A stretch of DNA of 64,000 nt from Turneriella parva DSM 21527. Its GTDB lineage: Bacteria > Spirochaetota > Leptospiria > Turneriellales > Turneriellaceae. Location: the NCBI RefSeq assembly GCF_000266885.1, contig NC_018020.1, forward strand, positions 2,542,001-2,606,000, in the 5' to 3' direction. A program made the position numbers and the translations under genes. Shown here piece after piece: positions 31,268 through 43,662 of this stretch; position 1 is the stretch's first letter, and each line of letters starts with the position of its first letter. The notes beneath the pieces were generated by a model, which had not been told where the DNA came from, ran no database searches, and saw only the letters and a program-made list of their open reading frames with translations.

Positions 31268-33058
31268 ATGCAAAAAAAGGAAGACATAGTAAAGGCCGTT
31301 AACGAGTATAAGGTGAAGCACGCTCTTGAAGGCACTGACGAGAACCTTAGTATTATCGTGCATTTCATAAACAACCAATCGCTAGATCGAGATAGCGCCA
31401 TTGACCAAACATCAAATCGTTCTAATGACTTTGGCATTGATGGCTGGTTCTTGAAAGATGGCGAGACATTGAATATTTACCAGAGCAAATTGAGCGAAAG
31501 CAAAGCCTTAGCTCTCCGAGGTCTCTCTGATCTCATTAATGCCGCAGCTTGGCTTGAGGCCCTGTTTACAACGGATGAAGTTGAAAAAATTCCCGATAAT
31601 CCATGCCTTTACAACCTCTTCATGATGTTCGCTAAAAACAAGGCAAATATTCGGCAGCTAAATTTCGTCCTACTGAGCCCTTATTCAGAAACTGAACTGG
31701 AAGACACAGTAGAAGCAGAAAATGCTAACCAATCCCTCTTAGCTTCAAAGCTAAACGAAAAAGTAAAAATTAGTCTCCGGTTCGAGCAATATTGCCTGGT
31801 ACCAGGTTTAAAGAAAGCGCGCAAGAAGTATCCCATAGCTAGGATAAAGGATTCGACAATTTCTTTGAGACCCGATGCCCATCTTGATCTCGCCTATATA
31901 CCGATAACAAGCCTAATTGACCTTTATCGTCAACGCGGCGACGTGCTCTTTGAAAAGAATGTACGCATGTCCATTTCTTATACTAAAGAATCTAAAGACA
32001 GACTTGTGAACCCAATGGAGGCGACATTCGACGCGATAGTTGAGGGTCGGCTTGACCCCAAAATATTTCCCTTCTACCATGTTGGCGTCACAATCTGCGC
32101 TCTCCGAAAGCATGATGATGAGGACCGAAAACTTAGTCTTGAAAGCCCGAATGTGATTAACGGCGCACAAACCATTACCATCGCAAATAATTTTCTTAAG
32201 CGTTTAGAAATTAGCAAAGACGAGAAAAAACTTGAGCGATTCTCAGAAATCAAAGTTATAGCTAAAATTGTCACAGGGACGACAGATGATGAACTTAAAG
32301 AGATAACTAACTCAAACAATCGCCAAAATCCGATTGAAAATTGGCAACTTTTCTCCAATGACCCTATCCACATAGCAATCGAATTAGCTTTAAAGGACAT
32401 TGGCGTATTTTACGAACGACAGCGCGGCAAGTTTCAGTCGGTTATGAAGAAAGCTGAATCAGCAAAAGACTATTTTAACACCAACAACGCGCATATAACC
32501 GTTATGGACTTAGGCCAAATAATTGCATTTGCGAAAGGCAAATTGCAGTGGGCGGCTAAGCCATCCGAAATATTCCTCAATAAAGCCAATCATGATACGA
32601 TATTTGATGCGAGCATAGAAAACTACCCACAGGATATGGTCGTGATGCATAACATTTTTAAGGCCCTGAAAAGAGGTTTGCAGCACTACTTGCAAAAGCC
32701 AGTGCTCTCTGATGACCACTCCCAGCGAATCTTCAGCAAACCGATTGTTCGAGCCCATGTTTACTACATTGGCCTATTGCACTACTACCGACATCCATCG
32801 AAAGAAAACATCCGCATTGACGCTGCCCAACGCCTACACCGAATTGCGAATTCAACGCTGGTTGACGACACCCTGATCACATTCCAAAAATACATATCTA
32901 AGTTCAAGAACAGGTATCTCGCAGACTCAAAGCAAATGGAACAAGATGTTTCCAATAAGAAACTTGATACAATCACAAAAGATATTCTCAGTGAACTTGG
33001 CATTAGCCAAATAAACCTTCTTCCGTTTTCAGGCACTGCAATATCGTGGTCTGAATGA
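31268..33058 (+). CDS. AIPR-family protein, candidate abortive-infection/phage-defence factor
   Basis: 596 residues. The second half shows the AIPR (PF10592) pattern: KNVRMSISYTKESKD, FYHVGVTICALRK, SPNVINGAQTITIANN, and TNSNNRQNPIENWQLFSND. The first part has FGIDGWFL followed by LNIYQSK (D58, Q72, K74), a plausible D...QxK nuclease core of the PD-(D/E)XK type. AIPR proteins are tied to abortive infection. The gene is visibly AT-richer than its neighbours and is followed by repeats, both signs of transfer. No partner methylase is adjacent. Confidence 0.8.
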   Translation: MQKKEDIVKAVNEYKVKHALEGTDENLSIIVHFINNQSLDRDSAIDQTSNRSNDFGIDGWFLKDGETLNIYQSKLSESKALALRGLSDLINAAAWLEALFTTDEVEKIPDNPCLYNLFMMFAKNKANIRQLNFVLLSPYSETELEDTVEAENANQSLLASKLNEKVKISLRFEQYCLVPGLKKARKKYPIARIKDSTISLRPDAHLDLAYIPITSLIDLYRQRGDVLFEKNVRMSISYTKESKDRLVNPMEATFDAIVEGRLDPKIFPFYHVGVTICALRKHDDEDRKLSLESPNVINGAQTITIANNFLKRLEISKDEKKLERFSEIKVIAKIVTGTTDDELKEITNSNNRQNPIENWQLFSNDPIHIAIELALKDIGVFYERQRGKFQSVMKKAESAKDYFNTNNAHITVMDLGQIIAFAKGKLQWAAKPSEIFLNKANHDTIFDASIENYPQDMVVMHNIFKALKRGLQHYLQKPVLSDDHSQRIFSKPIVRAHVYYIGLLHYYRHPSKENIRIDAAQRLHRIANSTLVDDTLITFQKYISKFKNRYLADSKQMEQDVSNKKLDTITKDILSELGISQINLLPFSGTAISWSE

Positions 33059-33954: not shown

Positions 33955-34329
33955 CTAATCATCCGAACCTGTACACATTTCATCGACACACTTAAAGTTG
34001 AATCCGCATTGAATATCCATCGAACATTTCTTTCCGCAATAGCCTTGTTTGGCGCATTTGTTTCCGATACCACATTCGATGTCCATCGTGCATTCCTTAA
34101 TGCCGTGCGCTATCTCTTTCGTGCAGACCTGATTTTTGCATTTGAAATCACCACATTCAATATCCATCGAACATTTCTTGCCGCAGACCCCACGGGAGCA
34201 TTTCATTTCGAGGCCGCATTCGATATCCATGCTGCATTTCTCACCAATTTCTTTATCAGCGAATGCAGGATTCAAAAAAGATATCAATACCAAAGCGGTA
34301 AAAAACCAAATGCTCTTGACGTTTAACAT
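33955..34329 (-). CDS. Secreted Cys-rich protein with four repeats
   Basis: 124 residues. A good Shine-Dalgarno (GGGAG) precedes the ATG. Signal peptide (FFTALVLISFLNPAFA) followed by four units starting at residues 32, 53, 80 and 102, each with C-x-MDI-E/Q-CG, then KC and a fourth Cys: 16 Cys in about 90 residues. The pattern suggests small disulfide-bonded domains exported from the cytoplasm. It resembles no family I can name with confidence. It lies among repeats on the strand opposite to its neighbours. Confidence 0.75.
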   Translation of the reverse strand: MLNVKSIWFFTALVLISFLNPAFADKEIGEKCSMDIECGLEMKCSRGVCGKKCSMDIECGDFKCKNQVCTKEIAHGIKECTMDIECGIGNKCAKQGYCGKKCSMDIQCGFNFKCVDEMCTGSDD

Positions 34330-35877: not shown

Positions 35878-38800
35878 GTGCTGCGCGAGCATCTCAATGC
35901 TGAGAATATCAGATTCGCTCTGAAGGGTAGCGTTGAAAACGCCATCAGCACGCTTATCGAGGCGAACGCAGGTGCCGATCTGGGTCTCGTGCGCGATGCT
36001 TTTGCGAACGCGCGCCGCGCACCCTATATGAGCGCTGAGCATGGCGTGCTGATTCCGCATGTGCGGGTGCACGGCCTTCGCCGCACGATCGCGGCGCTAG
36101 GGCTCTCGCGCGAAGGTCTTGAACATGCCGGTGGCAAGGTTCATGTCGTGCTCGTGCTCGCTCTGCCCGCGGGCGAAACCGCGCACGAACTGCAGTTGCT
36201 TCAGGGCATGTCATCGGTCTTGCCTGCGATCGCGGGCGAACTGCGCGAAATCACCGACGCAGCTGCCGTGCTCAAGGCGTTGAAGCGCGGCGAAGAGCAC
36301 GCAAAACCTTCTTTTCGCAACCTCACGCAACAACAAATCGAGTTTGAACTTGCAACCGATCTCAAAGCAGGATTAACCACGCGAGAAGCCGGCGCGCGGC
36401 TCGCTGAGTTTGGCGGCAATGTCGTGCGCCGTGGCCGCCGAATTCCCTGGTACATAAAACTCGCGCGCAATTTCTTTAGCTTCTTCGCCGTCTTGTTGTG
36501 GGGGGCCGCAGCGCTCTGCTACGTACCGGGCGTCGATATGCCGCAGCTCGGCACAGCGATACTCATCGTGGTGATCGTCAATGGTTTCTTCTCTTTTCTA
36601 CAAGAATACAAATCAGATAAGGCTGTCGACGCACTCAAGCGTATGATGGCACGCACCTCGCGCGTCATGCGCGACGGCGCGGTCACAGAGATATCGGCAG
36701 AAGAACTTGTGCCAGGCGATATTATATTGCTTGAAGAAGGTGACATCGTGCCCGCTGACTCGCGGCTTGTCGACGCGTACGACGTCGAGGTTGATAACTC
36801 GTCTCTGACGGGCGAATCGACTTCGGCGAAAAGGTACAAATCTGACCAGCCCGTTCTGATCGAAGGCCGCTTTTTGTGGATAGAGCTGCCCAATATCGTC
36901 TTCGCCGGGTCGACACTCATTCGTGGCAATGGCCGCGCCGTTGTTTACGCAACGGGCATGTCGACCGAGATCGGCAAGATTGCAGACCTGACGCTCGGCA
37001 TCAAGAGCGAAGCGAGTCCGTTGCAGAAGCAGCTGCGCGGTACGGTATTCGCAATCGCGCTGCTCGCACTCACGATCGGGCTTACGTTTCTGTTTCTGGG
37101 GTGGCTCGTTGCGGGCTTAAGTTTTGTTCAGGCGTTTGTCTTCTTTATCGGTCTTTTCGTCGCGAATGTGCCCGAGGGGCTTTTGCCGACTGTCACGCTT
37201 TCGCTCGCCATGGGGGTCACCCGCATGGCCCGGCGCAATGCAATCGTCAAGAACCTGTCTTCAGTCGAGACCCTTGGCTGCACGACCGTCATCGGCACCG
37301 ACAAAACCGGCACGCTCACACAGAATCTGATGATGGTGCAGCAGGTCGTCGCGGGCGGCGAAACCTTTTTCGTTGAGGGTCACGGCTATGAACCGCAGGG
37401 CAAGTTTACGCTGAACGGCAGCGAAGTCGCGCGCGAACAGCTTGCAGGCCATTCGGTATTCAAGGCCCTCGTCGATTGTGCATACATCTGCAATAACGCC
37501 AAACTCGAGCGGGTGCCTGGCGGCACGCGCGTAATTGGCGACCCTACAGAAGGCTGCCTGCAGACGCTCGCTGCGCGCGCCGGTGTTGCCGGCACGCACC
37601 AGCGCATTCACCTAAACCCGTTTGAGTCCGTTCGCAAGCGCATGAGCGTCGTGGTGCTCGAGCCGCAGACGCGTAAACGTATAGCGTATGCCAAAGGTGC
37701 CCCTCTTGAAATTCTCTCGTGCTGCAGCCACATCATGACTGCGGGCGGCGCCAGCCGATTAGACGACCGGGAGCGCGATAAGATACGCCGCCAAACAGAT
37801 GAACTGGCAGCACAGGGTTACCGCATGCTCGGCCTTGCCATGCGCAGCGACGACGCGCTGCAAAGCATCACGGCGTTCGACGTCGCGAACACCGAGAGCG
37901 ATCTCATATTTCTGGGGCTCGTCGCAATTTCAGACCCCGTTCGCCCCGGCGTCAAAGAGGCGATCGCTGCCTGCCACAGGGCGGGCATTCGCATCATGAT
38001 GATTACGGGTGACTATCCGCTCACGGCGAAAAGTATCGCGAGGCAAATCGGTCTCGGCGATGGTGGCGACCTCACCGTTCTCACGGGCACTGAACTTGGC
38101 AACCTCAGCGACGAAAAACTCTGTGAGGTGCTGAAAAGCGGCGAGGCCGTTTTTGCGCGGGTTTCGCCTGAGCAGAAGCTGCGCATAGTGACGATGCTCA
38201 AGTCGCTCGGCGAGATTGTTGCCGTGACGGGCGATGGGGTCAACGACGGCCCGGCACTGAAAAAGGCCGATATCGGCATCGCGATGGGCATGCGCGGCAC
38301 CGACGTTGCCAAAGAAGCGGCGGAGATAATACTCACCGACGACAATTTCAGTTCGATAGTGGCAGCGATCGAAGAGGGGCGCGGTATTTTCGACAACATC
38401 AGAAAATTTGCTTCGTATGTGTTCAACAGCAACCCGCAAGAGCTGTATCCCTTTATACTCTGGATGCTGATACCCGGTTATCCGCTCGTGATGACAGTCA
38501 TGGGGGTTCTCGCAGTCGATGTCGGTACCGACCTGATACCGGCGATGGGCCTCGGCATCGAACCGCCCGAAAAAGGCATTATGGAAAGGCCGCCGCGCAA
38601 ACGTGGCGAACGGCTGCTGTCGATGCCGTTCATTTTGCGCTCATACCTCGTGCAGGGTAGCCTGCTCGCGTTCAGCTGTTTCGCCACGTACTATTACTTC
38701 GCCTGGACGATGGGCTACCTCAAGGGGCCGAACGCGCTGATGAACCTGCCGGCCTCACCTGAAAAACTCAACATGGCTAATGCGACCCAAATCTATTTGC

Positions 38801-39393
38801 AGTCGCTCACGGCATTTTTCTTTCCGACAATTGCCGTACAGATTGGCAACGTGCTCTGCAAGAGGTCGCATTCGGCGTCGTTGTTCTCACGCGACTTCTT
38901 GCGAGAAAGTACACGGGCCGCGGGCATCGCCGCGCTGCGCTCGTACCTGCCGAAACGCCGCACGCTCAACATCAACATTCAATACCGTTTTGAAGAGGCA
39001 CACCACGACGATACGCACCGCGCGTTCTTCGCGCAGTTCTTGCAGCTGGTCAGCTTTCCGCTGCGCGTGCTTTATATGCGCCTCGCCAACTACACGCTGC
39101 CGCTCAGGCGAAAAGTTTTTGTGCCTCTGCTGCGCCTGACCGCGGCTTTCTTTGAGCGCTACCCGGTGGTCTATAACTTCGTTTCGAATCCGCTGATCAA
39201 CGTCGGCATTGCCGTTCAGTTTCTGCTGTGTTATGCGTTCTTCTACACTGACCTCGGTAAGGTTTACTTTTTCGAACCCGTGCCATGGCATGTGTACCTC
39301 TTTGCCTTTCATGGCACAGTGCTCATCATCGCGTTTGAGGAGATCAAGAAGTACTACCGCCGGCGCGGGCATAAGTTGGAGTTTTTGGGGTAA
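35878..39393 (+). CDS. P2C-type (Na,K-ATPase-like) P-type ATPase with an N-terminal PTS EIIA domain
   Basis: 1171 residues, GTG start. Residues 1-140 match a fructose/Ntr-type PTS EIIA domain (HLNAENIRFALKG, phosphorylatable H61 in VLIPHVRV, QLLQGMSSVL). The pump follows: cation-ATPase N-terminus, TGES (311-314), PEGLL (432-436) in VANVPEGLLPTVTLS, phosphorylated D475 in DKTGTLTQN, GDGVND (785-790), then six C-terminal helices. NVPEGLL and VKNLSSVETLG are close to eukaryotic Na,K-ATPase alpha. Expected to export Na+ or exchange cations. The EIIA fusion suggests control by PTS phosphorylation. No beta subunit nearby. Confidence 0.88.
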   Translation: MLREHLNAENIRFALKGSVENAISTLIEANAGADLGLVRDAFANARRAPYMSAEHGVLIPHVRVHGLRRTIAALGLSREGLEHAGGKVHVVLVLALPAGETAHELQLLQGMSSVLPAIAGELREITDAAAVLKALKRGEEHAKPSFRNLTQQQIEFELATDLKAGLTTREAGARLAEFGGNVVRRGRRIPWYIKLARNFFSFFAVLLWGAAALCYVPGVDMPQLGTAILIVVIVNGFFSFLQEYKSDKAVDALKRMMARTSRVMRDGAVTEISAEELVPGDIILLEEGDIVPADSRLVDAYDVEVDNSSLTGESTSAKRYKSDQPVLIEGRFLWIELPNIVFAGSTLIRGNGRAVVYATGMSTEIGKIADLTLGIKSEASPLQKQLRGTVFAIALLALTIGLTFLFLGWLVAGLSFVQAFVFFIGLFVANVPEGLLPTVTLSLAMGVTRMARRNAIVKNLSSVETLGCTTVIGTDKTGTLTQNLMMVQQVVAGGETFFVEGHGYEPQGKFTLNGSEVAREQLAGHSVFKALVDCAYICNNAKLERVPGGTRVIGDPTEGCLQTLAARAGVAGTHQRIHLNPFESVRKRMSVVVLEPQTRKRIAYAKGAPLEILSCCSHIMTAGGASRLDDRERDKIRRQTDELAAQGYRMLGLAMRSDDALQSITAFDVANTESDLIFLGLVAISDPVRPGVKEAIAACHRAGIRIMMITGDYPLTAKSIARQIGLGDGGDLTVLTGTELGNLSDEKLCEVLKSGEAVFARVSPEQKLRIVTMLKSLGEIVAVTGDGVNDGPALKKADIGIAMGMRGTDVAKEAAEIILTDDNFSSIVAAIEEGRGIFDNIRKFASYVFNSNPQELYPFILWMLIPGYPLVMTVMGVLAVDVGTDLIPAMGLGIEPPEKGIMERPPRKRGERLLSMPFILRSYLVQGSLLAFSCFATYYYFAWTMGYLKGPNALMNLPASPEKLNMANATQIYLQSLTAFFFPTIAVQIGNVLCKRSHSASLFSRDFLRESTRAAGIAALRSYLPKRRTLNINIQYRFEEAHHDDTHRAFFAQFLQLVSFPLRVLYMRLANYTLPLRRKVFVPLLRLTAAFFERYPVVYNFVSNPLINVGIAVQFLLCYAFFYTDLGKVYFFEPVPWHVYLFAFHGTVLIIAFEEIKKYYRRRGHKLEFLG

Positions 39394-43293: not shown

Positions 43294-43662
43294 CTAATTG
43301 ATGATATATGGCACACGAATAGAAGGGTGCGACAAATTGAAGTCGCGCGTGTTGCGGGTGACGAGCTGGCATTCGTGAACCAGAGCCGTTGCCCAAATCA
43401 TCGCGTCGGGTATGCGCAGTCGGTGTTGCTGGCGCAGTTTAACGGTGAAGTCGGCGACCTCGGTGGTTACGGGGCAGAGCGCGAAATGGCTCAAGAATTT
43501 TCTGAGCTGCGCTTCGTCTTCGGTTGATTTGGCGCCGACCAGAATTTCAATCTGCGTGACGAGGCTGATCAGGCGTTTTTCATACAGGGCAATTTCTGTT
43601 TTCGCCTGTGTCTCTCCGTTCAGGTAATCAATCAGAATGTTCGTGTCAAAGACGGCTTTCAC
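43294..43662 (-). CDS. vapC: VapC-type PIN-domain toxin
   Basis: 122 residues. PIN-domain acidic residues are in VFDTNILIDYL (first Asp), a Glu in TQIEILVG, and RIPDAMIWATAL (Asp pair region), followed by LVTRNTRDF. VapC toxins are Mg-dependent RNases that cut initiator tRNA or rRNA. The start overlaps the antitoxin stop by 4 bases, the usual VapBC arrangement. Confidence 0.88.
   Translation of the reverse strand: MKAVFDTNILIDYLNGETQAKTEIALYEKRLISLVTQIEILVGAKSTEDEAQLRKFLSHFALCPVTTEVADFTVKLRQQHRLRIPDAMIWATALVHECQLVTRNTRDFNLSHPSIRVPYIIN

Follow-up and report, generated by a model that had tools for sequence, protein, structure and literature searches.

The spirochaete Turneriella parva, a free-living, aerobic member of the Leptospiraceae (PMC3746428), has a genome assembled into 2 contigs that total 4,409,302 bases. 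Within the 64,000-nucleotide stretch analysed here, hereafter the window, a gene on the forward strand at 35878–39393 encodes a fusion of an EIIA domain of the phosphotransferase system (PTS) with a P2 ATPase; the open reading frame, 1171 residues long with a GTG start, was confirmed at this position, and two congeneric genomes carry intact orthologues of 1171–1172 residues. The N-terminal EIIA domain of the fructose/Ntr type (residues 1–140, 35878–36297, +) contains the predicted phospho-acceptor His61 (codon 36058–36060, +) and is connected by a short linker to the Cation_ATPase_N region (PF00690, residues 148–214, 36319–36519, +). This is followed by the E1-E2 ATPase region, comprising the actuator and M3-M4 (PF00122, E 5.3e-45; residues 256–453, 36643–37236, +), with the VPEGL motif at 37168–37182, and by the invariant aspartyl-phosphate site DKTGT (residues 475–479, 37300–37314, +). 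Further downstream on the same strand lie the membrane motifs SNPQE in M5 (residues 851–855, 38428–38442), DVGTD in M6 (residues 881–885, 38518–38532) and QIGN in M8 (residues 988–991, 38839–38850). No beta subunit is evident among the neighbouring genes viewed. An operon with pts genes was considered and rejected, since the fusion has no pts gene as a neighbour in the 25 loci viewed. Elsewhere in the window, positions 31268–33058 (+) encode a 596-residue protein that by eye resembles AIPR (abortive infection phage resistance) proteins, 33955–34329 (−) a secreted-looking, Cys-rich protein of 124 residues with tandem CSMDIECG-type repeats, and 43294–43662 (−) a PIN-domain, VapC-like toxin as judged by eye (MKAVFDTNILIDYLNG).

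Both profile and fold confirm that the N-terminal domain is an EIIA of the fructose/Ntr type, as the earlier note had proposed from the letters of the DNA. The family PF00359 (PTS_EIIA_2) covers residues 21–136; against its curated cutoff of 27 bits, it scores 26.1 bits, just below, in a scan of the full-length protein, 31.1 bits in a six-frame search of the genome and 31.7 bits (E 1.8e-7) with the EIIA domain alone, and it matches 18 of 20 fusion domains at E values up to 0.01, the best being 3.6e-33. An AlphaFold model of residues 1–152, built with 20 homologues, reaches a pLDDT of 85.9 and a pTM of 0.82. Its best PDB match by Foldseek (E 1.2e-9) and VIA-align (Z 17.6, rmsd 2.0 Å over 139 residues) is the EIIA-Ntr/PtsN structure 3urr, and the top matches, 3urr, 1a6j, 4gqx and 2a0j, are all PtsN (Z 17.1–17.6), with EIIA-mannitol types next; the cytosolic domains of human SLC4 proteins are also among the fold matches, with Z of about 10 to 15. 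Relative to the nearest orthologue, dN/dS is about 0.15 for the EIIA part and about 0.06 for the pump, with dS near saturation; the former value indicates that the EIIA domain is under purifying selection and is not decaying.

Searches covered 296 Spirochaetota genomes with the EIIA part, 84,980 species genomes and 48 genomes of the class with a profile of residues 1–351, and three other phyla (395, 384 and 396 genomes) with a wider profile. Homologues with the same fusion, whose collection the earlier note had suggested, come from several phyla: 39 were collected from Leptospirae, groundwater 'Deltaproteobacteria', Desulfobacteraceae, Syntrophales, Acidobacteria and Omnitrophota, many of them complete frames of about 1060–1190 residues and the rest running off contigs. 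Eight genomes of the Leptospirae carry the fusion, and in a ninth (G217, locus L006) the contig is broken between the two parts. The fusion is widespread but rare, being present in about 13 of 395 genomes of the delta phylum, 5 of 384 Omnitrophota and 3 of 396 Acidobacteria. In a tree of the pump cores, T. parva falls within a branch made up of 21 fusions, free of EIIA-less pumps (SH-aLRT 100 in a quick tree), which spans Leptospirae, delta lineages and Acidobacteria; the remaining fusions form two or more other branches, beside which stands an EIIA-less group (L071, L073, L119–L121 and L123). Judged from this tree, one gain followed by loss and a few separate gains are both possible histories. 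Spread by plasmids was also considered and rejected, since the EIIA domain had no tblastn match in 72,556 plasmids.

The EIIA parts of 35 aligned fusions share a median pairwise identity of 25% (minimum 12%), and within residues 1–149 no column other than that of His61 (35/35) is invariant. Four further Omnitrophota copies keep it as well, so that the His of IPHVRV singled out in the earlier note is retained in 39/39 fusions, and it shares its column with the phosphorylated His of stand-alone EIIAs, T. parva's own included. Indeed, His61 stays even where the preceding Pro is missing (IFHT, IYHH, ILHN and IFHC). It is also kept in two fusions, L135 and L136, that were found via matches starting beyond residue 85, and His61 therefore played no part in their selection. 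Omnitrophota fusions keep the whole canonical site, RExxxxTGIG..IPHARI together with HLKxL. In T. parva, the supporting Arg is lost and the second His sits one residue early, column 104 being occupied by Glu where 27 of the 35 fusions have His; the second His is wholly absent in several fusions of the Leptospirae. Judging from this pattern of residues, the domain was very probably functional as an EIIA at the time of the fusion. It is likely to be functional in present-day T. parva too, a reading of which we are less sure because the Arg is lost and the second His displaced.

In the pump part, Pfam recognizes Cation_ATPase_N, E1-E2_ATPase, a hydrolase domain and Cation_ATPase_C, and the motifs TGES, VPEGLL, DKTGT and TGDGVND are all present, which places the pump in the P2 class. 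The earlier note had called it a complete P2C ATPase; the motifs and the full set of P2 domains bear out its completeness, but the subfamily holds only as the nearest one, since TIGR01106 (Na,K/H,K alpha), the best of the P-type models at 568.5 bits, falls below its cutoff of 946.1, and the scores of PMR1- and SERCA-type models are not much lower. The best PDB sequence matches are the solved Na,K- and H,K-ATPases, and these P2C pumps appear to be the closest relatives. Alignment with the alpha-3 chain 8d3u, in the residue numbering of the Na,K-ATPase, shows E327 (VPEGL), S775, N776 and E779 (SNPQE), and D804 and D808 (DVGTD) to be conserved. The ligands of Na/K sites I and II are kept throughout the fusion family, with SNxxE retained across the full-length fusions. 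At Na site III, an Asn of M8 replaces D926, a QxxN pattern seen in other fusions too, and the ion stoichiometry may therefore differ from that of the Na,K-ATPase. We read the protein as a Na/K-type pump with a changed third site, whose ion and stoichiometry we infer from these residues. The transported ion in T. parva is likely but not certain to be Na+ or K+, because the score lies below the curated P2C cutoff and the third Na site is altered.

A search of the T. parva genome for EI and HPr, which the earlier note had advised, found both encoded. The single HPr has a GVHARPA (His15-type) motif and a Ser46-type site, and its gene adjoins genes for HprK and an HPF-like protein (both named by eye). 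The single EI, of about 571 residues, is divergent (44.6 bits), with a CGE motif and a divergent His-bearing swivel motif, TSDTAHE (motifs read by eye). A stand-alone EIIA with canonical motifs is also encoded. A search for EIIC of the glucose superfamily, which gave matches in control genomes, found none in T. parva, and since EIICs of that superfamily are lacking, the T. parva PTS looks regulatory. This make-up fits the grouping of the Leptospira EI with regulatory types, found in organisms mostly without PTS transporters (PMC2405797). Among fusion-bearing genomes, HPr is found in 22 of 24 and EI in 21 of 24, many of these being drafts and the rates standing without a matched background. An EIIA match with its fold, His61 in the homologues and a PTS kinase in the genome, on which the earlier note had staked its reading, are all present.

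We propose, with a probability of roughly 0.62, that the protein pumps monovalent cations and that its activity is governed by the PTS through phosphorylation of the EIIA domain it carries. One chain would then combine an ATP-driven P2-type pump, most likely moving Na+ out and K+ in, with a PTS receiver, and phosphate would pass from PEP via EI and HPr to His61. The short linker ties the EIIA domain to the start of the actuator/M1 region, which moves to drive the E1-E2 cycle; a switch there is well placed, and the phosphorylation state of the domain would favour or hinder that movement and so act as a brake on the cycle or as its release. In the unphosphorylated state the domain would hold the pump back, and when PEP is high its phosphorylation would lift this restraint; this sign of control is a guess by analogy, made because unphosphorylated PtsN binds and inhibits the K+/H+ antiporter YcgO. 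The full-length AlphaFold model, with a pTM of 0.38, is too poor to place the EIIA domain on the pump. Counting against the proposal are, in T. parva, the loss of the Arg, the displaced His, the divergent EI, the lack of an adjoining pts gene and the Asn in M8. Pumping is probably tuned by the energy and nutrient state of the cell in T. parva and in bacteria of several other phyla. More broadly, we lean towards there being a widespread class of P-type pumps, each an aspartyl-phosphate pump with a PTS phospho-His domain covalently built in, so that PEP supply would set the monovalent-cation gradient directly, with a small co-translated membrane subunit in one large branch.

The T. parva domain might instead be a phosphorylation-independent regulatory or assembly module, its EIIA fold docking HPr, a stand-alone EIIA or the actuator domain, on the model of the cytosolic domain of the SLC4 anion exchanger, which has the same fold without PTS chemistry. 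The erosion of the supporting active-site residues in Leptospirae and the human SLC4 domains among the fold matches are consistent with such a module, but if the fold served docking alone, His61 would not stand out as the sole invariant column of the fusions, and the active site is complete in the Omnitrophota copies; we consider this reading unlikely. Alternatively, EIIA control may be real and the ion another one, H+ exchanged against K+, or Ca2+, in which case the PTS would be linked to pH or calcium. The missed TIGR01106 cutoff, the closeness of the PMR1- and SERCA-type models and the Asn in place of D926 point this way. The combination of SNxxE in M5 with DxGTD in M6 is, however, of the Na,K-ATPase type; in Ca pumps, Asn takes the place of the first Asp of M6, which counts against Ca2+, and the gastric H,K-ATPase has a Lys near the S775 position, where the alpha-3 alignment places none in the fusion. 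On balance, a different ion seems doubtful to us, and PTS control of a Na+ or K+ pump is the reading we prefer. That two neighbouring genes were merely read as one has a negligible chance of being true: no support for it was found, the single broken contig (G217) being a related one, and the frame runs without a break in one finished genome and in over 30 independent assemblies, which represent several phyla. These intact independent copies in many genomes rule out an artefact of assembly or reading frame.

An EIIA domain attached to a transporter is a known idea, and its attachment to a P-type pump appears to be undescribed. LacS of streptococci and lactobacilli resembles the fusion in being a transporter whose polypeptide includes an EIIA-like domain; it is, however, a secondary carrier of sugars, and its domain is of the EIIA-Glc type, whereas the fusion is a primary P-type ion pump with an N-terminal domain of the EIIA-Ntr/fructose type. 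The EIIA domain of LacS is C-terminal, and its fold is unrelated to that of the EIIA-Ntr/fructose type. The P2C ATPases, comprising the alpha chains of Na,K- and H,K-ATPase and archaeal homologues, resemble the fusion pump in best subfamily score, P2 architecture and Na/K-site ligands, but the fusion pump falls short of the TIGR01106 cutoff, has Asn for D926 and carries an EIIA domain, which is absent from known P2C pumps. Phosphorylation of the EIIA-like domain of LacS by HPr modulates transport, and a 2023 review (PMC10710835) presents LacS as the only transporter in bacteria to be regulated by direct phosphorylation; KdpFABC, whose serine phosphorylation is cited in PMC11808508, is left out of that count. 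PtsN is of the same EIIA family and fold as the fusion domain and likewise targets monovalent-cation transport: unphosphorylated PtsN inhibits YcgO, and PtsN regulates TrkA and KdpD (PMC11808508, PMC13104625). PtsN acts in trans by binding, whereas the EIIA of the fusion belongs to the transporter itself. The role of prokaryotic P2C pumps is listed as an open question in section 7, on archaea, of PMC10654040. In agreement with the earlier note, which knew of no pump with its own EIIA domain, the literature searched holds no description of such a fusion; Barabote and Saier 2005, the likeliest place for one, lies outside that scope, so that this absence is no proof. If our proposal is true, the fusion would be a second case of a transporter regulated by direct phosphorylation, here on a primary ion pump. 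It would suggest that some prokaryotic Na,K-like pumps, at the least, serve to couple ion gradients to PEP supply, and it would offer a single-chain system for testing PTS control of K+/Na+ transport, so far studied via PtsN in trans.

A CPA2-like antiporter of 888 residues in another spirochaete (genome G053, locus L042, 832–3498), whose gene adjoins a ClC-like gene, has an EIIA match in frame and so, like the fusion, joins EIIA and cation transporter in one open frame; by eye it is a secondary antiporter, in contrast to the P-type pump. Several transporter classes seem to recruit EIIA domains.

Directly upstream of the EIIA-pump gene, a number of loci encode a conserved small protein of about 65–90 residues with two hydrophobic stretches and the consensus KLAKHLALLAxLLIxGRASG...AASLLHLxGRxL, whose stop usually overlaps the pump start by 4 nt. 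It lies at L052 249–497, L053 4774–4995, L055 (to 1386), L056 (to 5004), L057 2860–3069, L058 380–661, L060 4648–4854, L061 4784–5020, L062 4808–5011, L063 2054–2293, L065 4579–4854 and L124 3886–4089. No Pfam family fits it. It occurs in the delta/Acidobacteria branch and in one Leptospirales genome, and may be a small pump subunit. As a general pump subunit it was rejected, being absent from T. parva and hence outside the T. parva system. One Omnitrophota contig, JADFYD010000043 (L070, 4815–6050 and 7795–8832), looks like a chimera. Its EIIA-pump stops short at about 5936, and the C-terminal portion follows farther along the contig on the other strand, a glutaminyl-tRNA synthetase-like gene separating the two.
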